Source: a virus
Length of the DNA stretch: 46,144 nucleotides
IMG/VR virus record: IMGVR_UViG_3300033143_002284
Span: 1-46,144 of that record
Reading direction: 5' to 3' (one strand)
Below, one piece after another: positions 24,824 through 43,469 of the stretch. The first letter of the stretch is position 1. Every line of letters starts with the position of its first letter. Under the pieces are notes generated by a model. It saw only the letters and a list, made by a program, of their open reading frames with translations, was not told the origin of the DNA and did not search any database. The position numbers were made by a program, and so were the translations under genes.

Positions 24824-24837
24824 TAATTAATTTAAAT

Positions 24838-25182
24838 ATGTCTAATTCGAAAAAGGACCAAAAAGAAGCCGCTGAGGTCAAAAACCCATTAAAACCACAA
24901 GAAGTTGAAGAACTAAGAGATGCACAGGCTGTCTACGAGATGACTAAGACTGCGGGCTGGAAGATTGTAGTCAAACAATTAGAAAAAGCAGCATACCATA
25001 GCTGGGTTGACCCAAGAGAGGTTGACAACAGGGACGATTGGGAATGGAGAGAACTTAACGGGTTTCACGCTGCTAATAACGCAAAAGAGCTGTTAAATGG
25101 TATTCAAGAAATCATAGAAAAGGCGGAGTATCTTGACAAAGTACGTTCTGGTGAGTTACAAAGGAAGACAATGAGGATTTAG
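24838..25182 (+). CDS. Hypothetical head-module protein (114 aa)
   Basis: A helical acidic protein with a Trp-rich centre (YHSWVDPREVDNRDDWEW). Between portal and scaffold; likely a head-associated small protein, but no family is recognised. Confidence 0.65.
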   Translation: MSNSKKDQKEAAEVKNPLKPQEVEELRDAQAVYEMTKTAGWKIVVKQLEKAAYHSWVDPREVDNRDDWEWRELNGFHAANNAKELLNGIQEIIEKAEYLDKVRSGELQRKTMRI

Positions 25183-25209
25183 CTTATAGGCTAACCCAGT
25201 ACATAGCAA

Positions 25210-25491
25210 ATGTCACCAAATGATAAAGTATTACCGCCACTTCCTAAATCAGACCCGCAAAGTTTACAGTGGAATTCAAAAGATAATTTCTACAAAGTTA
25301 AATCTGCTGACTACTGGGGTGATAACGAACTCAATCGTGAAGAAGTTTTACCACATAAAAAATGCGAACATAATTTTAAAACTGCGCCAGGTGGCGTTAG
25401 ATGTCAGAAGTGCCATTTCGGCCTTACTGGCAAAGACTTGGAAATCCGTGATGGCAAATTATTTTCGAAAGGAAAGGCCATAGGATTTTAG
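25210..25491 (+). CDS. Zinc-ribbon-containing hypothetical protein (93 aa)
   Basis: KKCEHNFKTAPGGVRCQKC gives CxxH and CxxC pairs, a zinc ribbon. The remainder is short beta. Precedes the structured leader of the scaffold gene. Confidence 0.65.
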   Translation: MSPNDKVLPPLPKSDPQSLQWNSKDNFYKVKSADYWGDNELNREEVLPHKKCEHNFKTAPGGVRCQKCHFGLTGKDLEIRDGKLFSKGKAIGF

Positions 25492-25512
25492 CACATTTTT
25501 AAAAATTAGCCA

Positions 25513-25599
25513 ATGTGTACGGAAAACCACACATCCGTATGGGAGAGATGTCCGAGCTCCCGAAAACAACTGGACACGACAAGAAGGAGGTGAAAACAC
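25513..25599 (+). promoter_or_regulatory. Pseudoknot-like leader of scaffold gene
   Basis: The 108-nt gap before the scaffold gene can form two interleaved folds. ATGTGT (25513-25518)/ACACAT (25529-25534) competes or interlocks with ACGGA (25519-25523)/TCCGT (25534-25538). Then GGGAG (25541-25545)/CTCCC (25557-25561) encloses TGTCC (25549-25553), which can pair with GGACA (25572-25576), an H-type pseudoknot. It ends right before the AGGAGGTG SD. The segment from 25541 resembles the 5' part of tRNA-Ser. Confidence 0.5.
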
Positions 25600-26568
25600 T
25601 TGGCAACCAAAGATAACGCGCCCGTAAAGGACGCTTCTAAAAAGGCAGCTACTATTCCTGCTCCAGCTAAAACAGCTCCTGCGGTACCAGCTACACCAGC
25701 GGCACCAGCAGTTTCAGCTACACCAGCACCGGCAGCACCTAGTAAGCCAACAATAAATACAGAAAATAAAAGGACGACAGAACAGTTTGACAAACTGCTT
25801 GATTCTAATAAAGAACTAATGGAGGCAAATAAGTCTCTATTGGATGCTCAACAGAGGAGAGAAGAAGCAAACGAACAAGTTAGTCCATTGAACCAACCAC
25901 CAGTACAGTCTCAAGCTCAAGATAAAGTAAATCCAGAGGATTTTGTTGAGATAGACCCTGTAACAGGTCAAAAGTTTATTAATGAAATCAAACTTAAAGA
26001 TAAGATTGAGGCCCTTAATACACAAGCAACCAACGCTCAAAGAGCGGTACAGAGCTACATCAAAACGTCAGAAGCAAAAGATATTGACCGACAAAACAGA
26101 GAGACTTTCTCTACGTATCCTGAACTGAATCCTCAGTCAGATACTCATGATAAAGAATTTCACAGACAAGTTAGGTCAGTTCTGATTGATTCTATGACAT
26201 CACCAGAAGACTACGGTGGGAGACCAATGCATTTCAAAGAAGCAGCCGACTACGTTAAAAACGCGCAATCATCTAAAGAAGTCAAAACAGACGTGACTGA
26301 ACCAACTACAACAACAGCGGCTCCAGAAGGAGCTCCCGCTACACCAGTCGCAGGAGACGCAACAACACCAGTTGATGCTGCTCAAGCACTGAAAGAACAG
26401 GCGGCTGCCGATACGGCAGGACAACAACCACCGGCTCGACCACAGTCTGAACCAACAGAAGACAGAGAAAGGCTTGTTAGATTATCTCGAGAGGGAAATC
26501 TAGAAGCTATTGCAAGGAGACTTGCGAATACTGACCACGTTGGAGAAAAGACTACGACAACCCCATAG
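25600..26568 (+). CDS. Scaffolding-like protein (322 aa)
   Basis: Ala/Pro/Gln-rich low-complexity N-terminus, a central coiled coil (KLLDSNKELMEANKSLL), a middle helical part and an Ala/Pro/Thr-rich linker. It ends in a charged helix (DRERLVRLSREGNLEAIARR). Length, composition and position immediately before the capsid gene fit a head scaffold. The start is TTG, with an excellent AGGAGGTG SD 7 nt upstream. Confidence 0.7.
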   Translation: MATKDNAPVKDASKKAATIPAPAKTAPAVPATPAAPAVSATPAPAAPSKPTINTENKRTTEQFDKLLDSNKELMEANKSLLDAQQRREEANEQVSPLNQPPVQSQAQDKVNPEDFVEIDPVTGQKFINEIKLKDKIEALNTQATNAQRAVQSYIKTSEAKDIDRQNRETFSTYPELNPQSDTHDKEFHRQVRSVLIDSMTSPEDYGGRPMHFKEAADYVKNAQSSKEVKTDVTEPTTTTAAPEGAPATPVAGDATTPVDAAQALKEQAAADTAGQQPPARPQSEPTEDRERLVRLSREGNLEAIARRLANTDHVGEKTTTTP

Positions 26569-26576
26569 TGTGGATT

Positions 26577-26612
26577 CCATATCATCCCATTACTGGGATT
26601 AAAATGATATGG
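26577..26612 (+). promoter_or_regulatory. Stem-loop in capsid gene leader
   Basis: CCATATCAT/ATGATATGG (9 bp) with an inner CCCA-TTAC-TGGG hairpin. Lies just before the GGGGGAGGTG SD of the capsid gene. It could protect or process the mRNA 5' end; it is not followed by a T-run. Confidence 0.6.
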
Positions 26613-26650
26613 ATAAACATTTATTAGGGGGAGGTGAAAATAAATATAAC

Positions 26651-27559
26651 ATGGCTTGGGGTTTAATTACATACCAAGATACTTCTAGAAGAGAAGATTT
26701 AATGGACGTCCTCGCGGACGTGAGTCCAGATGAGACACCGTTGATGACGCTTTTTGGAACAAGCACAGCCAGAGGAACTTTACACGAGTGGTTGAAATAT
26801 AACATTTCACGACCTGCGTCAACAAGTTCAGCTGCTGAAGGAGCGGATGCTGAATTCGCAGACCTTACTGCACCTTCCAGAGAGAGTAACATCACGCATA
26901 TCATCCCACAATCTATTCAAGTTTCCAGAACAGAGAGACGAGTTAACGTTGCCGCTATCGGCGACCCATACGCGTTCCAGAAGTCTGACGGTTTACGTCA
27001 GTTAAAGTTAAAGATGGAATATGCCATTCTTAACTCAACAAAGGCTTCCGGTTCATCCGGTACCGCTAGGACAATGACAGGAATAAACGCCTTCATTACG
27101 ACTAATGCTACCGCTCGAAATTCCGGTACTTCATTCTCAGAGGCAGAACTAAACGACATGGCTTCCGATGCTTACACTGCGGTGTCAGCTGACAAGGTCT
27201 TCGATATGGTTCTTTGTACCGTGAAAATTAAGCAAGCAATTGCTGGATTCTCAGGTAACTCTACTAGATATATTGACGCTTCAGACAGACGTCTTATTAA
27301 AGACGTTCTCGTTTACGACTCAGCTGTTGGTTCACATAGAATCATGCATCACAGAGACGTTCAGAACACCGCCGGTACAACTACCGTCTACGGTCTAAGA
27401 GAAGAAATGCACAAAATTGCCTACCTTGACAAACCTCTTTTCCAAGAGATTAGCAAGATTGGTGACGCTGACAGAGGTCAATGGGTGACAGAGTTCACAC
27501 TAGAAGTTCTTGAAGAAAGAGCAGACTTAAAGAGAACAGGATATAACCAAAACGGTTAA
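26651..27559 (+). CDS. Major capsid protein (HK97 fold, SU10/DUF5309-like)
   Basis: The sequence GLITYQDTSRREDLMDVLAD, then VSPDETPLMTLFG and LHEWLKYNI at the N-terminus, followed by HIIPQSIQVSRTERRV, matches the SU10-type (DUF5309) major capsid family. It assembles the icosahedral shell. I start it at ATG 26651 (MAWGLITY), preceded by the GGGGGAGGTG SD though at a long 15-nt spacing; an in-frame ATG at 26609 lies within the stem-loop. Codon-rich and well expressed in appearance. Confidence 0.88.
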   Translation: MAWGLITYQDTSRREDLMDVLADVSPDETPLMTLFGTSTARGTLHEWLKYNISRPASTSSAAEGADAEFADLTAPSRESNITHIIPQSIQVSRTERRVNVAAIGDPYAFQKSDGLRQLKLKMEYAILNSTKASGSSGTARTMTGINAFITTNATARNSGTSFSEAELNDMASDAYTAVSADKVFDMVLCTVKIKQAIAGFSGNSTRYIDASDRRLIKDVLVYDSAVGSHRIMHHRDVQNTAGTTTVYGLREEMHKIAYLDKPLFQEISKIGDADRGQWVTEFTLEVLEERADLKRTGYNQNG

Positions 27560-28872: not shown

Positions 28873-29421
28873 ATGAAACAAAACAAAGCAAAACTCTTTC
28901 TTTCAATGATTTTGAAAGAAGACGAACCCACAAAAATCGTTAAAGATTCAATTCAATCAGTATTACCCCACATGGATGGGGCTTATATTGTTGTGACATA
29001 TGGAGATAAAGAGGTTTCTTTCTTTAAGTGGGTAGATGATTTTGCTAAGGCGCGAAATTTTGCCATGTCTCAGATGCCAAAGGGTGAAAATATATACTTT
29101 TACTGGCAAGATGCAGACGATGTCTTGAGGGGTGCCGAAAAACTTAGGGGAATTGCAGAAGAAGCCTATAGAATGAAGTGGGCTGCTGTTTTCTTTGACT
29201 ACTGGTATAAATGTGACTATGATAAAGAAGGAAATATTACCAACATTTTAGTTAATCACAAAAGAGAGAGAATCATTAGGAATGATGATACTTTCAAGTG
29301 GATTGGAATGCTTCATGAAACATTGATTGAGCAGAGAGTTGAGAATGTTATGAAGGTCGCCATGAAGGAATGTATTGTTATTCATGTACCAAAAGACAGG
29401 CTTGGTGGGACCGAGCATTAA
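28873..29421 (+). CDS. GT2 glycosyltransferase domain (5' part of split gene)
   Basis: A GT-A domain: LFLSMILKEDEPTKIVKDSI, then DDFAKARNFAMSQMPKG and the DxD-like YWQDADDVL that would bind a metal and nucleotide sugar. The frame ends at HVPKDRLGGTEH. The following gene continues the same domain arrangement in the -1 frame from the AAAA at 29391-29394, so the two are probably one multidomain enzyme separated by a frameshift. As read here it is a 182-aa GT2 protein. Confidence 0.75.
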   Translation: MKQNKAKLFLSMILKEDEPTKIVKDSIQSVLPHMDGAYIVVTYGDKEVSFFKWVDDFAKARNFAMSQMPKGENIYFYWQDADDVLRGAEKLRGIAEEAYRMKWAAVFFDYWYKCDYDKEGNITNILVNHKRERIIRNDDTFKWIGMLHETLIEQRVENVMKVAMKECIVIHVPKDRLGGTEH

Positions 29422-31175
29422 GATTGTTTCATACATATTTAGAGGGCAAGGGAACTCCGGGAGAGAAAGATTATATTGCTCCATCTGGTTGGCCAGAAGA
29501 GAGAGCTATTGCCTGGAGTCATATTGGGGAAATGGCAATTGTCCAGAAGGCACCATCAATAGCTGTTGAGGCTTTCCAGAATGCCATCGAAGAATCTCCT
29601 CTATACCCACAGCACTATGTAAATTTGGCTATGGCTTATACCTTAACAGGAGACTCAAAAGATTTTGCAAAGGCGAAACACTGGTTGCAGTTGGCAACAT
29701 CTTTTGATACTCCAGACACAACCTTAATTACAACTCCTAGAGACATGAAGAGCAGGGCTTTAGAAACAGATTTCTTTATTAAATTCAGGGAAGGAAAATT
29801 TGAGGAAGCTATTCAGGACTTAGAAGCACTTAAGGAAATGTTGCCAAAGGAGAAAAGTATTGATGATAGGCTGAAGAGCACACGAGGAGCAATGTCTGGG
29901 AATAAGGCGGCTCAGTCTCTTGTTTTCTTAGGTAAGTATTTAGAAGCACAAGGGAAGAATGAGAAAAAACTAGAATACTTAGCAAAATCAATACCATCAG
30001 ATATGGATGGTGAGAGATTTGCTTCAGAAATGAAACATAGATTTTTACCATCAAGAAAGTGGGGAGAAAACGAAATTACCATCCTTTGTGGTGCTGGAGT
30101 TGAGCCATGGACACCAAAGTCAGTTAAGACTGGCCTAGGTGGGTCTGAGGAAGCTGTTGTGTACCTATCTCAAGAGCTTAAGAAGCTGGGGTGGAAAGTA
30201 ACAGTATATGCTGCTCCAGGAGCGGAAGCTGGGGACTTTAATGGAATAACTTATAAAGAGTATCATGAAATTAATGTTAAGGACGAATTTAATGTTCTTA
30301 TCTTGTGGAGAAATATAGGGTTTGTTGATTTAGAGCCAAAAGCTAAATTCACAATGGTCTGGTTGCATGATGTTCCTAATAATGCAGACTTTACAGAAGA
30401 AAGAGTTGATAAGGTTAATAAGATTGCGGTTTTGTCAGAATACCATAGAGGACTACTGAGAGTGCTTAAAAAGGATGGTACATACGAAGAGATGCCTAAA
30501 AATAAGACATTCTTGACTGAAAACGGAACTTTCGAGCTTAAGCCACCAACAAAGAAGAACAAGAGAGACTCTAAGAAGATGATATATTCTTCTTCTCCAG
30601 ACAGAGGTCTTATTCACTTACTTAAGATGTGGCCAGAGATTAAAAAGGAAGTCCCAGACGCATCTTTGGATGTTTATTATGGGTTCAATACTTTCGATGT
30701 TCTACATAGGGATAATCCTGCGATGATGAAGTGGAAAGATGGAATGTTAGAGATGTTGAAGCAACCTGGGATTATACACCACGGTAGAGTTGGACATGAT
30801 GAACTACATGAAGCACTTAAGGGTGCTGGTGTATGGGCATATCCAACAGACTTTACAGAGATTTCATGTATCACAGCTATGAAAGCACAAATTCTTGGAA
30901 CCATTCCTGTTACTACTACTTTAGCTGCTTTAAATGAGACTGTTAAAAATGGAATTAAGATAGATGCTGATATCACAGAAAAAGATGTTCAAAAAGAATA
31001 TATTGAGGCTCTTGTTGACCTGTTGAAAGATGAAGAAAAACAAGAAAAAATTAGAATCCCAATGATGAAATGGGCGAAGGACTTCTTTACCTGGGAAAGG
31101 GTGGCCTTCAACTGGGACCAATTATTTAGAGTACATCTTCAAAATCCCGAGATGTTAATAAGAAAGGAGATATAA
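29370..31175 (+). CDS. TPR plus GT4 glycosyltransferase (3' part of split gene)
   Basis: From about residue 13 (KRQAWWDRALRLFHTYL) it continues the upstream GT2 enzyme, then shows tetratricopeptide-like helices (ERAIAWSHIGEMAIVQ, YPQHYVNLAMAYTLTGD) and a GT-B/GT4 domain (GLGGSEEAVVYLSQEL, IYSSSPDRGL, FTEISCITAMKAQILG). The first residues before the AAAA junction look out of frame and the start has no SD. Fused, it would be a ~770-aa GT2-TPR-GT4 enzyme; the frameshift may be programmed, a mutation or an assembly error. Confidence 0.75.
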   Translation: MYCYSCTKRQAWWDRALRLFHTYLEGKGTPGEKDYIAPSGWPEERAIAWSHIGEMAIVQKAPSIAVEAFQNAIEESPLYPQHYVNLAMAYTLTGDSKDFAKAKHWLQLATSFDTPDTTLITTPRDMKSRALETDFFIKFREGKFEEAIQDLEALKEMLPKEKSIDDRLKSTRGAMSGNKAAQSLVFLGKYLEAQGKNEKKLEYLAKSIPSDMDGERFASEMKHRFLPSRKWGENEITILCGAGVEPWTPKSVKTGLGGSEEAVVYLSQELKKLGWKVTVYAAPGAEAGDFNGITYKEYHEINVKDEFNVLILWRNIGFVDLEPKAKFTMVWLHDVPNNADFTEERVDKVNKIAVLSEYHRGLLRVLKKDGTYEEMPKNKTFLTENGTFELKPPTKKNKRDSKKMIYSSSPDRGLIHLLKMWPEIKKEVPDASLDVYYGFNTFDVLHRDNPAMMKWKDGMLEMLKQPGIIHHGRVGHDELHEALKGAGVWAYPTDFTEISCITAMKAQILGTIPVTTTLAALNETVKNGIKIDADITEKDVQKEYIEALVDLLKDEEKQEKIRIPMMKWAKDFFTWERVAFNWDQLFRVHLQNPEMLIRKEI

Positions 31176-31910: not shown

Positions 31911-32750
31911 ATGAAAAAACCAAAACTGGTTTTCATCTATGACCACGCTTTTCCAGAAATCTGGAGAGATGGTCTGTGGGAAGCCCTAAATCTTTTAGAA
32001 GAATTTTATAATCTTGAAAGGTTTAATATTTATAGAATAGAGGAGAGGTCTGCCTTTAGAGAGAAGTATGGTTCGAAAGAGGCATTAGAAAAAATAGACC
32101 TATTCCTTGGATGGGGAGCTTTTGGTAGTCCTGTTGACCAACTATTGCAGGCTCTACATGATGGTGCAAGGTCTAAGATAGGCTTGTGTATAGGTGGAAA
32201 CGCAATGCCACCAACAGGGGACGGAAAATATGATGTTTTATTTTATGAAACAGAATGGTATAAGCCACAAATAGAAGGAAATCTGAATATCGTACATGCG
32301 TTTGGTACAAATACGAACATCTTTAATTCAAATAAAAATGCTCCATTAATTTGGGATTGGTTAACTGTTGGCGCTTTTGCTGTATGGAAGAGACTTCATC
32401 TTATAAAAAAGAAGAAGGGAACAAAACTTGTTATAGGTCAGATTCAGAAAAATAACTGGAAAGAATCTTTTGATATAGTTGCTGATTTAATAGCTGATAG
32501 TGTTGCTATTTCGGATATGACATACCCAACAAGGTTGAGGAATATTTATAATTGTTCTAAAAGAGTTTATGTCCCTTGCGATATTACTGGAGGGGGAGAA
32601 AGAACTATACTTGAGGCTCGCGCGTGCGGGAGGCCAGTAGAGGTTGAGGAAGATAATCCCAAATTACTTGAGGTATTAAATGGACCACTACATGACCAGC
32701 ATTATTATTCCGCTCAACTTAAAAAAGGAATAGACGAATGTCTAAAATAA
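31911..32750 (+). CDS. GT-B glycosyltransferase (GT4-like)
   Basis: A 279-aa GT-B fold protein: N-terminal KLVFIYDHAFPEIWRDG and C-terminal VYVPCDITGGGERTILEARA followed by CGRPVEVEEDNP, the E-x7-E region that binds nucleotide sugar. Short for GT4 (usually 350+), so the acceptor domain is reduced. One of about a dozen sugar transferases in this island. Its end overlaps the next start by 13 nt. Confidence 0.75.
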   Translation: MKKPKLVFIYDHAFPEIWRDGLWEALNLLEEFYNLERFNIYRIEERSAFREKYGSKEALEKIDLFLGWGAFGSPVDQLLQALHDGARSKIGLCIGGNAMPPTGDGKYDVLFYETEWYKPQIEGNLNIVHAFGTNTNIFNSNKNAPLIWDWLTVGAFAVWKRLHLIKKKKGTKLVIGQIQKNNWKESFDIVADLIADSVAISDMTYPTRLRNIYNCSKRVYVPCDITGGGERTILEARACGRPVEVEEDNPKLLEVLNGPLHDQHYYSAQLKKGIDECLK

Positions 32751-33352
32751 AAAGACCAAGGATTTCCATGGTCATCCCGACCTATACCATGAATCAACAT
32801 CTGGAAGAAGAGGCCCTTAAGGCAATTGCTTCTTACAAAGACCAGGTTGATGAGTTAATTGTTACTGAGGATGCAGGTGTTTTTAGTCCACAGATTATGG
32901 GGGCAGTTGACCACTATATTTACAATCAAACAAATGGTTCTTTTACCAAGAACGTTAATAGGGGATGGAGATTTGCCACAGGGGAATATGTCATGATTGT
33001 TAATTCTGACACTCAACTGAGGAAAGGAAGCCTGAACGACCTTTGTATTCCCGGGAAAGTTACTTCTCCGGTCATCCAAAATCAGTATATTGACCGACTT
33101 GCTGGTCCATTCTGGGTTGCACCACGAAGTATCACTCTCAAGAGGGGAATGCTAATGGAAGAGATGAGAACATATAGCTCAGACTCAGAATATGATGAGA
33201 GAGTGAAGGATATTTTTCAAAAAGTAGAGAGTGTTGAGATTTATCATGAGCAAGCTCAGACTGTGAAGGCTGCTGGGGTAGAGGGGCATGAGGAACAACA
33301 ACGAGACAGAGAGATTTACAAAAAATTACAAGATGAGGGAAAAATGAAATGA
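32738..33352 (+). CDS. GT2 glycosyltransferase
   Basis: ISMVIPTYTMNQHLEEEALKA is a typical GT-A start, NGSFTKNVNRGWRFATGEYV follows, and IVNSDTQL supplies the DxD-like metal site. It is a paralog of the gene at 36684 (same IPTYT...DQV...TKNVN layout). 4-nt overlap with the next gene. Confidence 0.8.
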   Translation: MSKIKRPRISMVIPTYTMNQHLEEEALKAIASYKDQVDELIVTEDAGVFSPQIMGAVDHYIYNQTNGSFTKNVNRGWRFATGEYVMIVNSDTQLRKGSLNDLCIPGKVTSPVIQNQYIDRLAGPFWVAPRSITLKRGMLMEEMRTYSSDSEYDERVKDIFQKVESVEIYHEQAQTVKAAGVEGHEEQQRDREIYKKLQDEGKMK

Positions 33353-33990
33353 CAGAAATAATCCTGGTTCGTTACAAGCTACCAGAGATAGAGAAAGATT
33401 GCATGGCCTCGGTTGTGGAGTATACAGATGTTCCTTATTCTCTTCGGGTTTTTGACAATGCTTCTGAGAACCATAACCTGGGTAAGTTGTGGAATCGTTT
33501 AATTGGTGAAAGTGAAGCGGAATATATTTGTTTATTGAACACAGACACGATTGTAGAACAAGATTGGCTTAAAAAATTACTTGAAGTGTTTGAAAAAGAA
33601 GAAGGAGTTGGCGCGGTTGGTCCATCTACAAATGGAGCTAGAAATGCTCAAAAAACTAAGGAAAAATTTAAAAGATATGAGGTGTCTGATTTTATTCAGG
33701 ACTTTCCCGGTTGGTGTCTGTCTGGGTTTTGTATAGTATTTCCAAAAAGAGCGTGGAAACAGGTTGGAGGCTTTGCTGAAGACTTTGGGTTTTACGGTCA
33801 AGAAGTTGTGTTCTTAGATAAATTTACTAAAGCAGGTTTAAAACAGATGTGGAGAAAAGATGTTTTTATTCACCACGACCATTCTTCTAGCGCAAAAGCA
33901 GCCCAGAAGAGAGGTGAAATGAATGAGTTGGAGGAAAGAAAAAAAGGTAATTTAAAAATTCAAGAAATAAGAAAAAAGAATGAAAATTAA
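33349..33990 (+). CDS. GT2 glycosyltransferase (rhamnosyltransferase-like)
   Basis: ILVRYKLPEIEKDCMASVVE then RVFDNASENHNLGKLWNRLI, with LLNTDTIVEQDWLKKL carrying the DxD-like motif, and GFCIVFPKRAWKQVGGFAED typical of cell-surface polysaccharide GT2 enzymes. Ends in a basic coiled tail overlapping the next start. Confidence 0.85.
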   Translation: MTEIILVRYKLPEIEKDCMASVVEYTDVPYSLRVFDNASENHNLGKLWNRLIGESEAEYICLLNTDTIVEQDWLKKLLEVFEKEEGVGAVGPSTNGARNAQKTKEKFKRYEVSDFIQDFPGWCLSGFCIVFPKRAWKQVGGFAEDFGFYGQEVVFLDKFTKAGLKQMWRKDVFIHHDHSSSAKAAQKRGEMNELEERKKGNLKIQEIRKKNEN

Positions 33991-34891
33991 AATATTCGAT
34001 GCCAATCGACACAATGCTTTGCAGTCTGGTTATGGGAAGATGAGCAAAGTAGCTCATTCCAGACTAACCACTATGGGTCATGAAGTATTATGGCAAGATG
34101 ACCCAGGGAAGTATGATGTAAAGCTTTGGATACGACCACCTCATTATGCGGATTATGATAGCTTTGATACTAAGGACATAAACGTTTTTTGGACAATGCA
34201 CGAAGGAGAAACTTTCGATGATTGGAAATCTAATTGGCCAGAGTTAATGAGCAAGTGTGATATGGTTATTTTTCCAACCCACTGGTGCAAGAATGTATTT
34301 AAAAACAATGGAATGAAATCTAAGGCTAGGGTGTGTCCGTTAGGAATTGATACAAAAGTGTTTCATCCACAAACAAGTAAAAGGTTTAAAGTATTAATGG
34401 TGCATGAAAATTTTGGAGGTAGTAGTAGGGAAGACTGGGCCACTACCGTGAAGTCAATAGAGTATTTTAAAGAAAAGAAAAACATTGCTTTCACTGTTAA
34501 AACCTGGAATAGCGATTTTCATGGCAGTATCCCCAATACTCAAATCATAAATATGGAGCTTGTAGCCCAAGATATGGCTACTCTTTACAAAAATCACAAC
34601 GTTTTTATTAAGAACTCTGGAAGGGAAGGATGGGGTCTTCCAATGACGGAGGCGATGGCATGTGGTTTAGACATTATAGCTTCAAAAACTCCAACACTAG
34701 AGGCTAATGCTAGAGATTATCCAGTTTCCTGGTTTAAACATGGTGATGCCGGACAACTAACCAGACAACTAGACGTGTTGTATAAAAAATGGCAGAAGAG
34801 CAGGGTCCTTCTTGATTCTTTTGATTGGAAATATTCTATTAATAAATTAGAAGAACTACTTTATGAAGCGGTTGGAAACAAAAAAGCTTGA
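33980..34891 (+). CDS. GT4 glycosyltransferase
   Basis: GT-B fold: FWTMHEGETFDDWKSNWPEL near residue 73, VIFPTHWCKNVFKNNG, VCPLGIDTKVFHP and the strong donor-binding block NSGREGWGLPMTEAMACGLD. That last block is the classical retaining GT4 E-x7-E signature. Length 303 aa. It overlaps the next gene by 29 nt. Confidence 0.9.
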   Translation: MKIKIFDANRHNALQSGYGKMSKVAHSRLTTMGHEVLWQDDPGKYDVKLWIRPPHYADYDSFDTKDINVFWTMHEGETFDDWKSNWPELMSKCDMVIFPTHWCKNVFKNNGMKSKARVCPLGIDTKVFHPQTSKRFKVLMVHENFGGSSREDWATTVKSIEYFKEKKNIAFTVKTWNSDFHGSIPNTQIINMELVAQDMATLYKNHNVFIKNSGREGWGLPMTEAMACGLDIIASKTPTLEANARDYPVSWFKHGDAGQLTRQLDVLYKKWQKSRVLLDSFDWKYSINKLEELLYEAVGNKKA

Positions 34892-35393
34892 GATAGGTGG
34901 AGGAGCAAATAGTCGGTCCAAAGAAGGATATCTGCAAATGGACTCTAAAGATTTGCCAGGAATTGATGTGGTTGGTGATGTTAGAAAAATTCCCTTTAAG
35001 GATAATGAACTTGATGAAGTTTATGGGCATTGGATACTTGAGCACTTTTATTATAGAGAAATCTCAGATATTTTAAAAGAGTGGTATAGGGTTTTAAAAC
35101 CCGGTGGACTTCTCCACCTGGTAACTAATAATGGTCAAGCTCATATAGAATCATATCTTAATTTTGTTATTGATATACATGAACTAAACAGAATGCTTTT
35201 TGGTGTTGATTTAATCAATCCTCAAAAACATACAGAGATTGAGGATTTGCATAAAATTATTTGGACAAAGGAGTTGGTTAAACATTTTTTTAATCCAATA
35301 TTTTCTAAGGTGGAAATAAAGGAAACCTGGAGACACAGAGAAGATGATGTTTCTCTTAAGTGTCCTGGAATAATAATTAAAGCTTATAAATGA
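34863..35393 (+). CDS. Class I SAM-dependent methyltransferase
   Basis: LEIGGGANSRSKEGYLQMD is the SAM-binding motif I, VVGDVRKIPFKDNELDEVYG gives motifs II/III, and WYRVLKPGGLLHLV the motif V/VI end. Methyltransferase-11-like; the acceptor is unknown but the neighbourhood suggests a sugar O- or N-methylation. 4-nt overlap with the next gene. Confidence 0.85.
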   Translation: MKRLETKKLEIGGGANSRSKEGYLQMDSKDLPGIDVVGDVRKIPFKDNELDEVYGHWILEHFYYREISDILKEWYRVLKPGGLLHLVTNNGQAHIESYLNFVIDIHELNRMLFGVDLINPQKHTEIEDLHKIIWTKELVKHFFNPIFSKVEIKETWRHREDDVSLKCPGIIIKAYK

Positions 35394-36010
35394 TAAATAA
35401 AAAAATACAGGCTGGCTACGATATGGGTAAGTTGTTTGTTGATAGACATAATTTTAAGGGTGAGAGAGCTTTAGATGTAGGATGTGGTCATGCTTCTCAC
35501 ACGCGAGCCTTTGCAGAGAAGTTTGATAGGGTAGACGCCATAGACATTACTGGTATCAGAGTCAATTCTGAAGAACTAAAAAAGAAAAAGATATTTTTCA
35601 AAGAAATGGATGCTCACAATCTTGATATTTTGGGAGATGAGAAATATGACCTTATTTATTCCCTGTCAGCCCTAGAACATATGAAGGACTGGAAAAAGGT
35701 TGTTTCGTTGATATCTGGAAGACTGAAGCCAGGTGGGAAATTTTATTTAGTTATCTCTCCCCTATATTACAGCCCACTAGGCCACCACTTAAGACCAGAA
35801 ATAGGCGATTGGGAACACATACTTTTACCAGAAGTTGAGCTTCATAAGAAGGTTAAAGAAAGTGGTTGTCCAGATTGGAGATGGCAACTATATAAAGAAT
35901 TAAATAAATTAATTGCTTCAGAGTTCTTGGAAGAAGTAGATAAAGATTTTAATAGAGATTATTTAAAGTTAGACATAAAAACCATTGAGTATTTAGGAAT
36001 AAAAAAATGA
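35390..36010 (+). CDS. Class I SAM-dependent methyltransferase
   Basis: RALDVGCGHASHTRAFAEKF (motif I), YDLIYSLSALEHMKDW and LKPGGKFYLVISPLYYSPLG are clear methyltransferase motifs (Methyltransf_11/UbiE-like). Second methyltransferase in tandem. Stop/start overlap with the next gene. Confidence 0.87.
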   Translation: MINKKIQAGYDMGKLFVDRHNFKGERALDVGCGHASHTRAFAEKFDRVDAIDITGIRVNSEELKKKKIFFKEMDAHNLDILGDEKYDLIYSLSALEHMKDWKKVVSLISGRLKPGGKFYLVISPLYYSPLGHHLRPEIGDWEHILLPEVELHKKVKESGCPDWRWQLYKELNKLIASEFLEEVDKDFNRDYLKLDIKTIEYLGIKK

Positions 36011-36684
36011 AAATAGTAGTTTATACGTGTATAACTGGAGGGTACGATGCTGTAAGAGAAGACCAGGTTTTTGAAGATGGGGTAAAGTATGTTTACTTTT
36101 CAGAAGAGAACAATCTTGAACAAGACTCCAAGTGGGAGTGGAGGAAGGCTAATCGCTTATTTAAAGACCCACGAAGGGACGCTCGTAGGTATAAAATGTT
36201 GTCTCATGAGTTATTACCAGAACATGATTATAGTATTTGGATTGATGGGTCTGTTGCTCTAGATATTAAACCAACTGAACTGGTAAAAAATATTGGTGAT
36301 GCAGATTTGATGACATTTAAACACCCCGACAGGACAACAGTCGCTGCTGAGGCTGAGGAGTGCATAAGACTACAACTAGATGACCTAGACACAATTACTA
36401 AGCACGTCCTTGACATGCAGACTATGGGATTCGAAGATAAGTCTGGATTATTTGAAACAAAAGTCGTAGTTAGAAATGATAGCCCAGACATATGGTTGTT
36501 AAATGAGGAATGGTTTTATCAGATGGTAAACGGGTCTGTACGAGACCAAATAAGTTTACCATACGTTACTAGTTGTTCTGAGGCTGAGATAAAAACAATG
36601 AAAGCTATTAACCATGCTACACCAGATAGACGAAATAAGTGGTTTAAGTTTCAAGCTCATCCAGAGAGGACGGTATATCGCTAA
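36007..36684 (+). CDS. DUF616-family glycosyltransferase-like protein
   Basis: IVVYTCITGGYDAVREDQVF, then DARRYKMLSHELLPEHDYSI and WIDGSVALDIKPTELV, match the DUF616 family, a GT-A-like group that includes plant TOD1/MUCI70 enzymes. D-x-S in WIDGS may play the DxD role. It likely transfers a sugar; acceptor unknown. One-base overlap with the next gene. Confidence 0.8.
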   Translation: MKIVVYTCITGGYDAVREDQVFEDGVKYVYFSEENNLEQDSKWEWRKANRLFKDPRRDARRYKMLSHELLPEHDYSIWIDGSVALDIKPTELVKNIGDADLMTFKHPDRTTVAAEAEECIRLQLDDLDTITKHVLDMQTMGFEDKSGLFETKVVVRNDSPDIWLLNEEWFYQMVNGSVRDQISLPYVTSCSEAEIKTMKAINHATPDRRNKWFKFQAHPERTVYR

Positions 36685-37310
36685 TGTATTTAGATAAAAC
36701 AACAAAAACACTTGTTGTTCCAACCTATACATTGAGTACAGAGTTAGAAGAGATGGCTCTGGAGTGTGTAAAAAGTCACAGAGACCAGGTTGACCAAGTT
36801 ATTATAAGTGAAGATGGTGGTAGATATAGTAAAAAATTACGGTCTTGCGCTGACATTTATATATATACCAAGAAGAATGAGGGTTTTACAAAGAATGTAA
36901 ACAAGGCTTGGAAGATGTCTACGAGTGACTATACACTCATAGTAAACTCTGATGCATATTTGGAGTCTGGGAACTTAGTTGACCTTTGCACTACTCCAAA
37001 TGTGACCTGTCCATATGTTGAAGGAGATACAACAACAAGTGGTTTTACTGGCACTTATTTTGTAGTACCAAAAGAAACATTGGGAAAATATGGGATGTTA
37101 GACGAAAGACTTAGGACATTTGGGTCTGATGGAGACTATTTTGAAAGGATTCGTCATTTATTTAGGAAAGAGGGTAGGGTAAAGATTGGTCATCACGGTT
37201 CTCAAACTCTTAAAGAAGCCAAGATGGATATAAAAGAAGAATCAAACTTGGATTCATTAAAATATCGTGATATAATAACAGAAGATTATCCTGAAAGAAT
37301 AACATGGTAG
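36684..37310 (+). CDS. GT2 glycosyltransferase
   Basis: TLVVPTYTLSTELEEMALEC, TKKNEGFTKNVNKAWKM and LIVNSDAYLESGNLVDL are paralogous to the gene at 32738. C-terminal FGSDGDYFERIRHLF is an additional conserved acidic block. 7-nt overlap with the next gene. Confidence 0.8.
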   Translation: MYLDKTTKTLVVPTYTLSTELEEMALECVKSHRDQVDQVIISEDGGRYSKKLRSCADIYIYTKKNEGFTKNVNKAWKMSTSDYTLIVNSDAYLESGNLVDLCTTPNVTCPYVEGDTTTSGFTGTYFVVPKETLGKYGMLDERLRTFGSDGDYFERIRHLFRKEGRVKIGHHGSQTLKEAKMDIKEESNLDSLKYRDIITEDYPERITW

Positions 37311-38176
37311 AACTAACAATAAATTGCGATGACAATCCTATAACATTTAATAAGAAGAACTACCTCTTGAGTGCGGCTAAGAGAATGGGAATAAAAGTGC
37401 ATGATTATAAAGATGTTGTCGATGGTACGTCACCCAACCATGTTTTAAACATAGAACCATTTTCAATATTTCATACTGGTAAAAAATGGACTGGTATATG
37501 GGAAATAGATTTACTTTTAGACAGAAGCCAAACCAATACTTCTAATTGGGCTGCTTGCGACGATGTATTATTAGCATCTTCAAATACATCACATAGGCTT
37601 AGAGGGTTTGGAGATAGGAAAATTATTATGCAACAGGCGTGCGACCCAGTTTTACACAGAAGAATTCCAGAGATAGAGCAGAAATATGACTTCGTATTTT
37701 CTGGTACTATAGGATTAGATGTTTATATAGAAAGAGAAAGGGCCCTTAAAGTAATGAAAAAGAATTTTACTTTTAAGGACCAGGGTAAGAACCATAAGCC
37801 CAAGAAATATGTTAAGAAGATAAATGAAGCCAGAGTTCAATGGATTCGCTCAGGGTGTACCAATCTGGGGTCTAGTCAGGTCGCTCAACGCTTTTTTGAA
37901 TGTCTTGCAATTGGGCCTGTATTAAAAGACTATCATCCTGACCTTGAACTTACAGGGTTGGTTGAGGGGGCAGACTATTTATCTTATAAGAATGATGAAG
38001 AGATGATTGATAAAATGCATATGTTGTTAGAAAATCCAGAGATAGCTGACCAAATAGCTAAGAATGGTAGGAAAAAAGCTGTTGCGTTTCATTCATATGA
38101 GAATAGACTTATAAGTATATTAAACTTAATCAAAGAACACGCCGAAGATGATGAAACTCTTTTTAGTCAGATATAA
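37304..38176 (+). CDS. GT-B glycosyltransferase (CgeB/GT4-like)
   Basis: The C-terminal half has FVFSGTIGLDVYIERERALK, LGSSQVAQRFFECLAIGPVL and YKNDEEMIDKMHMLLENPEI, the layout of CgeB-type GT4 enzymes where RxFE...G is the donor site. The N-terminal half is the acceptor Rossmann domain. Ends just before the HNH gene. Confidence 0.8.
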   Translation: MVELTINCDDNPITFNKKNYLLSAAKRMGIKVHDYKDVVDGTSPNHVLNIEPFSIFHTGKKWTGIWEIDLLLDRSQTNTSNWAACDDVLLASSNTSHRLRGFGDRKIIMQQACDPVLHRRIPEIEQKYDFVFSGTIGLDVYIERERALKVMKKNFTFKDQGKNHKPKKYVKKINEARVQWIRSGCTNLGSSQVAQRFFECLAIGPVLKDYHPDLELTGLVEGADYLSYKNDEEMIDKMHMLLENPEIADQIAKNGRKKAVAFHSYENRLISILNLIKEHAEDDETLFSQI

Positions 38177-38183: not shown

Positions 38184-38831
38184 ATGGCGAGAAAATATAA
38201 AAAAAGAATCACGAAAAAGAGAGTTAAGGAAATAACACCAAGTTTTTGTAAAGATTATTTTGTCGGTATATCTTATGCAGAACTTGCCATTAAGTATGAC
38301 ATCAGCGAGGCGTTTGTCGCGAAGCTAATCAATGTAAATAAACTAAAGAAACGTGGCCTTGGTTGTAAAACAAAAGAATTGTGGAAAAATAAGTCTTATC
38401 AAAAACACATGTCTGAGGCGCACAAGGGGAATCCTGGATACTGGAAGGGGAAAAAGTTGTACCCCCATGTGGTGAAAATGATTAAAGAAAGGATGTTGGT
38501 TAATCCTATAAGATATTGGCTGGGGAAAGAATGTTCACACATGCGAGGAAAGAATAATCCGGGGTATGTTGATGGGTTGGGAGAAACTCGAGCAATTGAG
38601 AGGGGAGAGAGGATGAAAACAAAAAAATATCGTCGTTGGAGGTCAAAAATACTTGTTAGAGATAATTTCACCTGCCAAGAGTGTGGTGCCGTGGGGGGTA
38701 AATTGTGTGCTCACCATATCAAGTCTTATTTTAAACACCCGAAGCTTCGATATAAAATGAGCAACGGAACGACTCTGTGCAAATCTTGTCATTATAAAAC
38801 AGATAACTATGGGAGGAAAGTATATGTCTAA
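38184..38831 (+). CDS. HNH homing endonuclease with NUMOD motifs
   Basis: An N-terminal HTH-like region (YAELAIKYDISEAFVAKLIN) is followed by NUMOD3-type repeats (MSEAHKGNPGYWKGKK) and a C-terminal HNH domain: RDNFTCQECG, CAHHIKSYFKHP, TTLCKSCHYKTDN. This is the modular build of phage homing endonucleases. It splits two carbohydrate genes and probably inserted here by homing. Confidence 0.9.
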   Translation: MARKYKKRITKKRVKEITPSFCKDYFVGISYAELAIKYDISEAFVAKLINVNKLKKRGLGCKTKELWKNKSYQKHMSEAHKGNPGYWKGKKLYPHVVKMIKERMLVNPIRYWLGKECSHMRGKNNPGYVDGLGETRAIERGERMKTKKYRRWRSKILVRDNFTCQECGAVGGKLCAHHIKSYFKHPKLRYKMSNGTTLCKSCHYKTDNYGRKVYV

Positions 38832-39366
38832 TCTTTTCATCGCAGTTCACAATGACGACGAGGCACTTTTTGGCTCTTACATCATCCTTCGAAACAAACC
38901 AATAAAAGTTGTTGTTTGTACAGATGGTATTCTTCACAAAGAAAGATTTAATATAGACCCAGAGACTCGTAGGCAGGAAAGTAGAGATGCCTGTAGGATA
39001 CTCGGGTGTGAAGTTGACTTCCTTGGATTATCTGATAAAAAATTGGTGAAGTCTGAACTGGAAGACATGTTAATGAAATATGACCCAGAGATGGTGTTTG
39101 CTCCAGCAGTTCAGGGTGGGCATAGACAGCATGATGCAGTTTCTGATGTAGCAACTAGAATATGGGGAGATAGGGTTGTTTATTATTCTACCTATACCAA
39201 GGAGAATTTGGTTCCAGAAGGAGAGATTGGTCTTGTTCCCACTAGGCAGGAAACCGTAACTAAGATTCAAGCTTTAAATTGCTATAAGTCACAGCATGGT
39301 ATAAACAAACCACATTTTGATGCTGTAATGAGGGCTCCTGAATATCTAAGTTATATAAAGAGTTAG
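38824..39366 (+). CDS. PIG-L/LmbE-type de-N-acetylase
   Basis: HNDDEALFGSYI is the AHPDDE-type zinc motif (N replaces P), RRQESRDACRILGC the second block, and GGHRQHDAVSDVA supplies the later His-Asp-His. These zinc enzymes remove N-acetyl from GlcNAc-like sugars. I start at ATG 38824 (MSNLFIAV) with a GGGAGG SD. The overlap with the HNH gene is short. Confidence 0.87.
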   Translation: MSNLFIAVHNDDEALFGSYIILRNKPIKVVVCTDGILHKERFNIDPETRRQESRDACRILGCEVDFLGLSDKKLVKSELEDMLMKYDPEMVFAPAVQGGHRQHDAVSDVATRIWGDRVVYYSTYTKENLVPEGEIGLVPTRQETVTKIQALNCYKSQHGINKPHFDAVMRAPEYLSYIKS

Positions 39367-39383
39367 TATGATAATCTAAGAAC

Positions 39384-40127
39384 ATGAAGAAGAAAGTGAT
39401 ATTGCAAATGATGTTTGGGACTCCGTTTGATTGGGTAGACAAATATTTTGATAATTTTGAGATGTTGGCACCCTATGGATGGACACTTAAGATATTTACA
39501 CCCCATAAGATAAAAGGAAGAAAAAACGTAGAGATTGTTCCCATGACCATAGAAGACTTTGACGAAAGAATAAAGAGAAAACTTGGAATACAAGCCAATA
39601 ATTATATAGATGGACATGCTCCTCACAAGCTTACTAGTGACTATTACCCTGCTTACGGGTTAATTATGGAAGACCATATACAGGGCTTCGATTTCTGGGG
39701 ACATACAAACTGGGATGTTGTGTTTGGGAGACTGGACCACTTTTTAACAGATAAATATTTAGAGGACTGTGATGTGTTTGCGGATGAGGATAATGAGCTT
39801 AATGGAACATTCTCAATTTACCGTAATTGTGACAAGGTAAACAATTTGTTTAAAAAAGTCGATGGATGGGAAGAGGCTTTTGAGGTTCACTCGTTGTATG
39901 GTTTTGACGAGTTGATTATGGGTCCATGGATGGCTACTCAACCATACGTTAGGTTTAAATGTCCTCCCCATTATCCCTGGCACGGCTATGATAGACTACC
40001 ACTAGAGTTTGAACAGAAAAAGGACGGTTCTTTGTACCAGGTGGCTATAGATAAGGTTACGGGCAGGCGTATGGGTAAGGAGATAATGTTTTATCATTTT
40101 AGTTATACAAAAAAATACCCCCTATGA
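39384..40127 (+). CDS. DUF6625-like glycosyltransferase
   Basis: A 247-aa protein with FDFWGHTNWDVVFGRLDHFL near the middle, the signature of DUF6625-type GT-A enzymes, preceded by PAYGLIMEDHIQG, plus a later YGFDELIMGPW. Predicted sugar transferase. 4-nt overlap with the epimerase gene. Confidence 0.75.
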   Translation: MKKKVILQMMFGTPFDWVDKYFDNFEMLAPYGWTLKIFTPHKIKGRKNVEIVPMTIEDFDERIKRKLGIQANNYIDGHAPHKLTSDYYPAYGLIMEDHIQGFDFWGHTNWDVVFGRLDHFLTDKYLEDCDVFADEDNELNGTFSIYRNCDKVNNLFKKVDGWEEAFEVHSLYGFDELIMGPWMATQPYVRFKCPPHYPWHGYDRLPLEFEQKKDGSLYQVAIDKVTGRRMGKEIMFYHFSYTKKYPL

Positions 40128-40873
40128 AAAGATATAAAGATAAAAAAGTTTGCATTTTAGGCCGACATGGGTTTATTGGTTCGTCTATTGAGAAAAAATT
40201 AAAAGAACTTGGTGCAGAGACTATTTCTACTCCCACAGAGGACTGCGATTTTGTTTTTCATTTTGCCTCACCAACACACTTACCATTCGAGAAAAATCCT
40301 GAATATCATACATACACTACCTTATCAATCTTTACCTATCTCTTTAGGTTCTGTGCAATGAATAAAATAAAGTTGGTCTGGCCATCAAGTGCTCTAGTCT
40401 ATGAAAAAGATACTGAGTTTGCTAAACATAAAAAGGGAATAGAAAAAATGCAAACTAAATATTTTCAAGATAATTTATGTTTTAGAATTTTCCCTGTATA
40501 TGGCGAGACAGAAGGTGATAGAGGTCATCCAACAGCCATTTATCAATGGTGTGAGTCAGTGAAAAAGGGTAAGCGACCAATAGTTTACGGTGATGGCACT
40601 CAAGATAGAGCGTTTATTCACATCGATGATGTGGTTGATAATATTATTCAGAAAGCTATGGATGGAGAGAAAGGGATTGTGGATATTGGGCCGAAGAAAA
40701 ATACAAGTTTTAATGAGATTATAGATATAATTGGTAAAACCCTTGGTAAAAAAATTAAACCAAAATATATAGATGCTCCTGTAGATTACTCAGCTGGTAT
40801 TGTGTGTAAGAACCCTGTCCCTGTTAAAATAAGTATTAAAGAAGGAGTTGGTAGAATGATGAAGGTGCTATGA
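40124..40873 (+). CDS. NAD-dependent epimerase/dehydratase (extended SDR)
   Basis: VCILGRHGFIGSSIEKKL is the Rossmann GxxGxxG, CDFVFHFASPTH the A-strand, GDGTQDRAFIHIDDVVDNII and IGPKKNTSFNEII the usual UDP-sugar epimerase C-terminal blocks. The usual YxxxK catalytic pair aligns with FAKHK (Phe for Tyr), so it may be inactive or use another base. 4-nt overlap with the next gene. Confidence 0.8.
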   Translation: MKRYKDKKVCILGRHGFIGSSIEKKLKELGAETISTPTEDCDFVFHFASPTHLPFEKNPEYHTYTTLSIFTYLFRFCAMNKIKLVWPSSALVYEKDTEFAKHKKGIEKMQTKYFQDNLCFRIFPVYGETEGDRGHPTAIYQWCESVKKGKRPIVYGDGTQDRAFIHIDDVVDNIIQKAMDGEKGIVDIGPKKNTSFNEIIDIIGKTLGKKIKPKYIDAPVDYSAGIVCKNPVPVKISIKEGVGRMMKVL

Positions 40874-41538
40874 TAAATAATCTTTATGGCAAATTATTTG
40901 AATATCGAGGAGACAGCAGCGACAGGGGAATAATTAATTCTGTTTTTAGAGAGAACGTTTATAAAATGCCAGAGGAAATGGAAGGTATGATGGTTATTGA
41001 TATTGGGGCACAGATTGGAGCTGCTTCTATTTTAGCTGCTAGCAGGGGAGCAATTGTTTATGCATATGAACCTTTTATTGATAATTATAAGTTATTAGTT
41101 AAAAACATTGCTCATAATAAATATAAAAATAAGATTTTCCCGTTTAAGGAGGCAGTGGGAATACCGGGAACAAGAAAGCTTTATATTCATGACAACAATA
41201 CTGGTTCAAACAGCCTATATTTAATTTTGCCAGATTTTGATGAAGAGCATTATGAAGAAATAAAAACGGTTTCACTTGCTTCTATATTTAAAAAACACAA
41301 TATAAAAAAGTGCGACTTTCTTAAACTAGACTGCGAAGGTGCGGAGAGAGAAATTATTCCAGAGATAATTAATGGGTTACATGAAAAAATTGATAAAATT
41401 GGAGGAGAAATACATATTGACATATCTAAAGGGCCTATTGCTGATTTTGATAAAATAGAAAGAGAACTCATGGCTGGGCTCAACAAACTTTATAAGCAGA
41501 CCGAGTTGTCTGATAGTGAATTCCTATGGGAAAAGTGA
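40870..41538 (+). CDS. FkbM-family methyltransferase
   Basis: VIDIGAQIGAASILAASRGA is the SAM motif I, VYAYEPFIDNYKLLVKNI the FkbM acidic loop, and DFLKLDCEGAERE the diagnostic KxDxEGAE motif. FkbM enzymes O-methylate sugars or polyketides. Fits a role in modifying the glycan. Its 3' end overlaps the next start. Confidence 0.9.
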   Translation: MINNLYGKLFEYRGDSSDRGIINSVFRENVYKMPEEMEGMMVIDIGAQIGAASILAASRGAIVYAYEPFIDNYKLLVKNIAHNKYKNKIFPFKEAVGIPGTRKLYIHDNNTGSNSLYLILPDFDEEHYEEIKTVSLASIFKKHNIKKCDFLKLDCEGAEREIIPEIINGLHEKIDKIGGEIHIDISKGPIADFDKIERELMAGLNKLYKQTELSDSEFLWEK

Positions 41539-42119
41539 CAGCATGCTTAATATCTTATAAGAGACAGGAGAATATGGGGAAGATAATAACTCATTTACTC
41601 AAACATTCATTTATTGACGAGATTTTAATTAAGAATAATTTGCACGGAGACAATAATATTAGTTTTGGTAGATATGAAATGGCAGCTATAGCAAGTAATG
41701 ATATCGTTTATTTCCAAGATGATGATTGTATAAATCTTGACATTGGAGAACTTTATGATTCTTTTATGAAAAATCAAAACAGAATTACTCATGCGGTGAT
41801 TGAGGGGTATGAAGGAGAGGTAGAAAAAAATACTTATGGAGAAGCTCAGATGTGTATGGCCGGTTGGGGAGAGTTTTTCAAAAAAGACTGGATTAAGTAT
41901 TTTGACCCTTACATAGCCAGATATGGGGCAGATGAAATATTTTATAGAGAAGCAGATAGAATTATTTCTGTCTTAATGAATAGACACCACAATCCAGTTG
42001 TTTGTAATATGGCACAGATGCCTATACATGATGATGTTAAAATCTCTTTATGTGATGAGAAGGAACATTTGTGGTTTAAAAAGGAGTCAATTAGAAGAGC
42101 CTTAGAACTATGCCAATAG
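41526..42119 (+). CDS. GT-A glycosyltransferase-like protein (197 aa)
   Basis: TACLISYKRQENMGKIITHL then DIVYFQDDDCINLDI, with a DDD metal site, and RYGADEIFYREADRI. This resembles GT2/GT64 (exostosin-like) GT-A enzymes. Overlaps the next gene by 10 nt. Confidence 0.75.
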   Translation: MGKVTACLISYKRQENMGKIITHLLKHSFIDEILIKNNLHGDNNISFGRYEMAAIASNDIVYFQDDDCINLDIGELYDSFMKNQNRITHAVIEGYEGEVEKNTYGEAQMCMAGWGEFFKKDWIKYFDPYIARYGADEIFYREADRIISVLMNRHHNPVVCNMAQMPIHDDVKISLCDEKEHLWFKKESIRRALELCQ

Positions 42120-42727
42120 CATTACCCAATACAATTTTCTACCATATTCCTAAAACTGGAGGAACCTGGGTAAAGAATGCACTAGACTTGTTTGTGAAAG
42201 GATATGAAAAAGTATGGGGAAAAATTCCAGATGAACAAGGTTTGGCGTGGGGACACGCTACTCCAGATATGGTTAGTATTAAAAAAAAGGAGGGGAAGGT
42301 ATCTTATGCTATTATGCGCCATCCTGTGGAATGGTATCGTTCATTATGGGTTTTTCGGAAAAAAGGAAAACTTGGTGGTCCAAATGACCATTTTTTAAAA
42401 AAAGGTAGTTGGTCTAGTGATTTTAATAAGTTTATTGAGAATTTGGCAGAGAGATATCCTAATGGCTATTATACTGGTCTATATAAAAGATTTAAAGGTA
42501 AAATAGATGTTTGGCTTAGACAAGAAAACCTAACTGAAGACATTATTTTATTTTTAAGAAAGAATGGAGAAACATTCAAAGACGAGGATTTACGAGGATA
42601 TCCTCACATAAGGGTAGCAAGACCACATAGAAAAGCACAGGCAGTACCGTCAAAGAAAAGTTTGGTTCTAATAAAGGAGATGGATAAGTTAATATTTAAA
42701 GATTTTCCAGAATATGCCAAAAATTAG
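42110..42727 (+). CDS. Sulfotransferase
   Basis: Residues 12-20 read HIPKTGGTW, the 5'-phosphosulfate-binding loop of PAPS-dependent sulfotransferases (K15 and T16), and residues 70-78 read RHPVEWYRS, the 3'-phosphate-binding block (R70, S78). Length 205 aa is a compact sulfotransferase. It would sulfate a sugar using host PAPS. Overlaps neighbours by 10 and 14 nt, so it belongs to the island. Confidence 0.88.
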   Translation: MPIALPNTIFYHIPKTGGTWVKNALDLFVKGYEKVWGKIPDEQGLAWGHATPDMVSIKKKEGKVSYAIMRHPVEWYRSLWVFRKKGKLGGPNDHFLKKGSWSSDFNKFIENLAERYPNGYYTGLYKRFKGKIDVWLRQENLTEDIILFLRKNGETFKDEDLRGYPHIRVARPHRKAQAVPSKKSLVLIKEMDKLIFKDFPEYAKN

Positions 42728-43469
42728 TATTTTAACCCCAACAGTTAGAAAGGATGGTCTTGAAATTATTGCTAAACAATTGGCAAAACAAACGTTTAAA
42801 GACTTTGAGTGGTTGGTTGGTTCTTCTTTTGACCCCAAACAGAAGACGGCTAGGTGGATTAAGGATGATTTTAGTGGTGGTTTTTGGTCTTTAAACCGAA
42901 TTTACAACAAAATGTTCAAGAAAGCCCGTGGAAAGTATATTGTGAGCCTACAAGACCATATCTGGATACCACCTGATGCTTTAGGACGCCTTCTAGACAC
43001 CATAGAAGGGCTCGTAGGTAGGGAAAAAACATCAAAAGTCATCGTTTCTGGTGTTGGAGACCAGTATGACAGGCTCGACCAGTATGGAAAGCCAGAAATT
43101 AATATTTGGAGCGACCCCCGAAAAACAATAGAACATGGAAGTTTGTATGAATGCTACCCAAATGACGCAGAATGGAATTGGTGCATCTTTCCAAAAGATT
43201 TAATTTTTGAAATTGGCGGCATGGATGAGCAGTTAGATTTTATGGGATATGGTGGAGACCAGTTTCAAGTTGGCCAACGATGGGATGATGTTGGGGTAAA
43301 GTTCTTTTTGGACCAGTCTAATGAAAGTTTTACCAAAAGACATGACAGGTCTGATTTTGGTGGACAAAAGAAATGGGATAAAGACCATGTCCTATTTAAT
43401 GGAGAGTATGACAAAAGAAAAGAAGAGTTAAAGAGAAAAGGTAAATGGCCGTATTTGGATTACCTGTGA
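42714..43469 (+). CDS. GT2 glycosyltransferase
   Basis: ISILTPTVRKDGLEIIAKQL starts a GT-A domain; VSLQDHIWIPPDALGRLLDT carries the acidic metal site (QDH in place of DxD), and GGMDEQLDFMGYGGDQF the usual C-terminal block. Length 251 aa. Last of this consecutive GT run before three small virion-like genes. Confidence 0.82.
   Translation: MPKISILTPTVRKDGLEIIAKQLAKQTFKDFEWLVGSSFDPKQKTARWIKDDFSGGFWSLNRIYNKMFKKARGKYIVSLQDHIWIPPDALGRLLDTIEGLVGREKTSKVIVSGVGDQYDRLDQYGKPEINIWSDPRKTIEHGSLYECYPNDAEWNWCIFPKDLIFEIGGMDEQLDFMGYGGDQFQVGQRWDDVGVKFFLDQSNESFTKRHDRSDFGGQKKWDKDHVLFNGEYDKRKEELKRKGKWPYLDYL

Follow-up and report, generated by a model that had tools for sequence, protein, structure and literature searches.

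Does a small gene set among the sugar-related genes of a phage encode an enzyme that transfers sulfate from PAPS and, if so, to what acceptor and where? The gene in question, ORF 42110-42727, lies in a 46,144-base IMG/VR virus record with a podovirus-like head module; this record is the whole stretch of DNA analyzed and is referred to here as the window. The first-pass annotation had read the ORF as a PAPS sulfotransferase in a glycan island and had described both cofactor loops as intact. The ORF and the two loops were present as claimed, with HIPKTGGTW at residues 12 to 20 and RHPVEWYRS at residues 70 to 78 of a 205-residue product. The ORF overlaps the gene before it (41526-42119) by 10 bases and the gene after it (42714-43469) by 14 bases, which is the pattern of translationally coupled phage genes and is also seen elsewhere in this tightly packed late operon. 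With a probability that we put at roughly 85%, the product is a soluble sulfotransferase of the Sulfotransfer_2/HS6ST type that has a single domain, uses PAPS as donor and acts as an optional sugar-tailoring enzyme of the island. The features on which the argument draws are collected in Table 1.

Table 1. Features of the window that bear on the predicted sulfotransferase and its surroundings
Feature	Coordinates	Strand	Basis
Head module: terminase small/large, portal, major capsid protein (MCP)	20454..27559	+	PHROGs; MCP tblastn to podoviruses
TPR + GT4-type glycosyltransferase, first island gene	29370..31175	+	TPR + PF13692; 49-100% identity in most relatives
Glycosyltransferases (32738, 33349, 33980, 36007, 36684) and methyltransferases (34863, 35390)	31911..37310	+	Pfam
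GT-B-type glycosyltransferase	37304..38176	+	PF13524 E 2.5e-13
PIG-L deacetylase (38809), DUF6625 (39384), NAD-dependent epimerase (40124), FkbM methyltransferase (40870)	38809..41538	+	Pfam
Upstream neighbor, glycosyltransferase-2-like (weak)	41526..42119	+	PF00535 E 0.035; homologs in L158, L161
Predicted sulfotransferase, 205 aa	42110..42727	+	ORF with ATG start; family matches PF03567 + phrog_3347; AF2; Foldseek
5'-phosphosulfate-binding (PSB) loop HIPKTGGTW, aa 12-20; K15, predicted transition-state lysine	42143..42169	+	Sequence; core invariant in 51 homologs, partly by construction
H49, candidate catalytic base	42254..42256	+	50/51 homologs; A1 profile alignments
3'-phosphate-binding (PB) motif RHPVEWYRS, aa 70-78 (R70, S78)	42317..42343	+	Both residues 51/51, not used in collection
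Downstream neighbor, glycosyltransferase family 2	42714..43469	+	PF00535 E 2.2e-4; homologs in L160, L161, L163, L164
GT2 (44637) and methyltransferase (45452), at contig end	44637..46078	+	Pfam

When the 205-residue protein was used as a single query, it had no match in Pfam, PHROGs, NCBIfam, INPHARED (tblastn) or IMG/VR (single-query scan). It fell below the curated cutoff of PF03567 (Sulfotransfer_2), with no match at an E value of 0.1 or 1, and against phrog_3347 it did not reach an E value of 0.1. To collect its family, we scanned IMG/VR with a degenerate DNA pattern for IPKTGG[ST]W, which yielded 35 loci. Most of these encode homologs, the best with 27 to 36% identity over 150 to 230 residues and phmmer E values down to 1e-32; thus, the single-sequence searches came back empty because the protein has diverged, not because it is unique. 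A first alignment of 16 homologs (A1) served to extend the search, which then covered 75 viral and 31 bacterial loci, and a second alignment of 51 members (A2) followed, with homologs gathered throughout by an IPKTGG or HIPKTG pattern.

Members of this family matched what the query alone could not. PF03567, which covers heparan 2-O/6-O, chondroitin and other carbohydrate sulfotransferases and has the same PSB and PB motifs, was matched by 30 of the 51 members at an E value of 0.01 (best, 8.1e-11); the window protein differs in being compact, at about 200 residues, and undetected on its own. The phage protein family phrog_3347 (PHROGs v4), annotated as "Galactose-3-O-sulfotransferase," was matched by 14 of 16 family members (best, 2.4e-9), and the A2 profile searched against the PDB found heparan sulfate 6-O-sulfotransferase 3 (HS6ST3) at an E value of 9e-6. 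In the family tree, the 205-residue protein sits on a long branch (1.66), and no supported set places it among the viral and bacterial members. The bacterial members come from Peribacteria, Verrucomicrobia and others and do not identify the host of the phage.

Conservation across the 51 homologs points to the residues that are likely to matter. K15 in the first loop is invariant; this invariance is partly circular, since the family was collected with that loop. Outside the collection motif, R70 and S78 are conserved in all 51 proteins, H49 in 50 and E139 in 47. That these four positions are conserved across 51 diverged proteins, and that independent virus contigs carry homologs aligning over about 150 to 230 residues, indicates on sequence grounds that ORF 42110-42727 is not a chance ORF. 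H49 is a candidate catalytic histidine beyond the two loops described in the first-pass annotation. In A1 profile alignments, which are weak (E values of 0.012 to 0.024), it aligns with the histidine of LHADWTEL in HS6ST3 and with that of TH(I)P in plant SOT16/18. According to a review (PMC11625862), sulfotransferases have in common the lysine of the PSB loop, a serine in the PB helix and either histidine or glutamate as the catalytic residue. Because H49 is near-invariant, aligns with known sulfotransferase histidines, if at weak scores, and fits this description, it is the likely candidate for the catalytic base.

The predicted fold is consistent with this assignment. AlphaFold2 run from the single sequence gave a useless model (pLDDT of 38), and with the A2 alignment it gave a pLDDT of 89.4 and a pTM of 0.87. 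In the latter model, as also judged by Foldseek, the central β-sheet of the superfamily is present with its strand-loop-helix (strand 8-11, helix 18-28) and strand-turn-helix (strand 64-69, helix 72-84). The top Foldseek match in the PDB was HS6ST3 with PAP and a hexasaccharide (5t03; E value of 5.8e-4, probability of 1.00), and the further PDB matches listed were all sulfotransferases (SULT, HS2ST, NST and TPST). TM-scores for these matches were only about 0.4 to 0.5, with large RMSD; thus, the core appears to be common and the periphery different. HS6ST3 (5t03/5t05/5t0a) is the best PDB match by both profile and fold, and it shares a KTGGT loop and the histidine aligned with H49; however, it is a Golgi enzyme of eukaryotes that has long additional segments, and it compares at 18% identity and a TM-score of about 0.5. 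Among viral models (BFVD), the window protein matched proteins that carry the name sulfotransferase in P-SSM7, in Ralstonia phage RSL1 and in Synechococcus phages (S-T4), and also gp5.1 of SIO1.

If the protein uses PAPS, a supply of this donor is needed. An APS kinase was looked for within the 46,144-base window and none was found; therefore, donor supply would depend on the host. In relatives, the two genes are linked. In all five Peribacteria/Peregrinibacteria genomes (0.9 to 1.6 Mb; loci L111, L114, L115, L119 and L123), the sole APS-kinase-family gene lies 0.5 to 6 kb from the sulfotransferase gene, on the same contig and strand. An APS-kinase gene would fall within a random 12-kb neighborhood of a 1-Mb genome with a chance of about 1%, by our estimate, and because the genomes are related, the five cases are not five independent events. 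In an Omnitrophota genome (L113), the only APS-kinase-family gene is directly upstream of the sulfotransferase gene, and in most Verrucomicrobia and others the APS kinase is elsewhere in the genome. The linkage extends to a viral contig (L064, 5488-11030) that also carries a terminase: here a GT2 gene, the sulfotransferase gene, a 164-residue ORF, an APS-kinase-like gene and a 961-residue ORF stand in a row, with the GT2, sulfotransferase and APS-kinase-like genes within 2.7 kb. In L064 and the Peribacteria, the similarity of the APS-kinase-like genes to the profile stops after the first ~100 of its 152 positions, about two thirds, and these genes may therefore encode variants. Collectively, PAPS as the donor gains support from this linkage in relatives, and the clustering suggests that these Patescibacteria have a pathway devoted to sulfation, in which the APS-kinase-like enzyme is shortened. 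We also observed that the 164-residue ORF of L064 has an SGPQRSGT loop and that the 961-residue ORF reads like a radical-SAM/glycosyltransferase fusion; in one of the bacterial genomes with this clustering (G055), three tandem sulfotransferase genes lie beside the APS-kinase-family gene.

The nature of the acceptor is suggested by the genes that surround the sulfotransferase. The island spans about 29.4 to 46.1 kb and contains about ten glycosyltransferases, clustered in the window by Pfam, together with four methyltransferases, a PIG-L deacetylase and an epimerase. ORF 31911 had no Pfam match. Two other island genes carry less familiar domains: a TOD1/MUCI70 domain, plant-type and glycosyltransferase-like, at 36007-36684 (E value of 3e-17) and DUF6625 at 39384-40127 (E value of 1.5e-31). 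The same company is kept in other phages. Across 31 viral loci, glycosyltransferases dominate the domains found within two genes of the sulfotransferase, and an upstream order recurs in which a double GT2 of ~650 residues (8 loci) and a GT-B of ~315 residues (12 loci) precede it (L040, L042, L045 to L048, L051, L054, L058, L062, L066 and L071). Island content and these glycosyltransferase neighbors make a sugar acceptor the best reading. A protein tyrosine or a small metabolite could be modified instead, as the fold also serves phenols, steroids and tyrosine in enzymes on the PDB hit list; however, the best profile and fold matches are carbohydrate sulfotransferases and the gene neighbors are sugar genes, and we consider a nonsugar acceptor improbable.

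A mechanism can be proposed on this basis. PAPS made by the host would bind HIPKTGGTW, with K15 at the bridging oxygen, and R70 and S78, which would hold the 3'-phosphate. H49 would take the proton from a sugar hydroxyl, which would then attack the sulfur in line. The acceptor would most likely be a sugar assembled by the neighboring glycosyltransferases of the phage together with the deacetylase, the epimerase and the methyltransferases of the island, and the sulfotransferase would act as an optional tailoring enzyme within the island. The ORF, its membership in the family, the predicted fold, the conservation of active-site residues, the gene context and the optional presence are direct results of the analysis; from these we infer enzymatic activity, PAPS use, a sugar acceptor and any site of the glycan (virion or host cell), and the protein very probably moves sulfate from PAPS to a sugar. 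The original call of a PAPS sulfotransferase in a glycan island is thus well supported: the profiles of the family, its predicted fold, the two cofactor sites, the conserved histidine and the link to APS kinase genes in relatives all speak for it.

That the enzyme is optional is indicated by a set of 16 related records, whose MCP is 70 to 100% identical. None of the 16 gave a match to the sulfotransferase family, but many are fragments that stop short of its position. Related records do carry the island: 10 of the 16 have GT2 genes, and many island genes are common to relatives. In one (G016, locus L161), homologs of both flanking genes lie 82 bases apart with nothing between them. Since related records carry the island with no match to the gene and its flanks are adjacent in G016, the sulfotransferase appears to be a cassette that can be exchanged while the island around it is conserved. 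A close relative has in its island a 209-residue gene with a GTGSCGSSS loop (L158, 170-799, minus strand) between homologs of window genes 40870 and 41526; considered as a second sulfotransferase type, it had no Pfam or PDB match and an hhalign probability of 2%. An accessory gene that sits on a long branch of the family tree and is unmatched in the 16 related records, which are often fragments, could also be a decaying gene or encode a PAP-binding protein, with a sulfotransferase fold that lacks the activity. Yet every predicted catalytic and cofactor residue is intact, and the frame is open and overlaps its neighbors. We therefore give an inactive protein little credence.

With a sugar-modifying enzyme as the preferred reading, the question becomes where the sulfated sugar might sit. 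The purpose put forward in the first-pass annotation, a change of surface charge or a block to adsorption or immunity, would be hypothetical at either site. It could be on the phage's own particle (capsid or tail), where sulfate would alter charge or mask the surface, an account that we hold tentatively and at a little under even odds. The island follows the head genes immediately downstream and shares their strand, and ORFs 43492 and 44007, on its far side, recur in relatives. On this account a protein of the virion would receive its first sugar from the TPR-glycosyltransferase at 29370-31175, whose architecture seems to resemble that of protein glycosyltransferases; this TPR-GT4 fusion is conserved in the phage group and is a candidate starter of a glycan on a protein. 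There is precedent in mycobacteriophages Che8 and Rita, whose capsid glycans are linked to phage-encoded glycosyltransferases (PMC11256854). The likeness lies in those enzymes; the difference is that no sulfotransferase is mentioned for Che8 and Rita and that their glycans are reported on capsids (PMC11256854), whereas a virion glycan of the window phage would be a prediction. However, a location in the late region also fits modification of the host surface, and nothing indicates that this phage would benefit from shielding against immunity. The enzyme might instead modify a surface polysaccharide or lipid glycan of the host during infection, for example, against readsorption of progeny or superinfection, which is conceivable but which we would not bet on. 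Phage-encoded O-antigen modification is a known strategy, and related enzymes are encoded by bacteria, in some cases with an APS kinase gene linked to them. Surface-conversion genes, however, are usually few, are carried by temperate phages and come with membrane flippases; no flippase was seen among the annotated ORFs, which are part of those in the window, and the fifteen or so sugar genes exceed what surface conversion usually needs.

Two observations concern the phage outside the island. The terminase large subunit is split into an ATPase half (20977-21870, phrog_2) and a nuclease half (21867-22562, phrog_38); in L145 and L154, a wider gap separates the two halves and contains an ORF resembling an HNH endonuclease, a pattern suggestive of gene fission by a homing element. 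The only tRNA found in the window is a tRNA-Thr (TGT) at 774-849 on the minus strand.

Sulfotransferases had initially been described as rare in phages, which is too strong: PHROGs has a sulfotransferase family, BFVD lists examples from cultured phages and this subfamily occurs on dozens of IMG/VR contigs. In INPHARED, the subfamily was not found with three query sequences, and a fourth, more distant query retrieved three records. Among cultured phages, P-SSM7 (E3SP23), Ralstonia phage RSL1 (B2ZYD5) and Roseobacter phage SIO1 (gp5.1) have proteins that match by fold at E values of 4e-6 to 2e-4; they differ in that identity is 14 to 17%, the phages belong to other groups and the BFVD table does not label SIO1 gp5.1 as a sulfotransferase. 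Phage sulfotransferases have been described as auxiliary genes of unclear function (PMC10580990), were among previously reported viral genes in glacier ice (PMC8290583) and make up one of the common gene categories of Patescibacteria-assigned viruses (PMC12285232). By homology, then, the 205-residue protein belongs to a widespread, uncharacterized family of phage and bacterial sulfotransferases.

The island location, the recurrent glycosyltransferase-sulfotransferase order, the APS-kinase link and the variable presence of the gene make a role in sugar sulfation concrete and testable. In its fullest form, which we regard as somewhat unlikely, the phage would build a sulfated, methylated multisugar glycan on its own particle by a self-encoded pathway, with sulfation as a swappable late step. 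We know of no sulfated glycan on a bacteriophage virion; if this proposal is true, such a glycan would, as far as we know, be a first.
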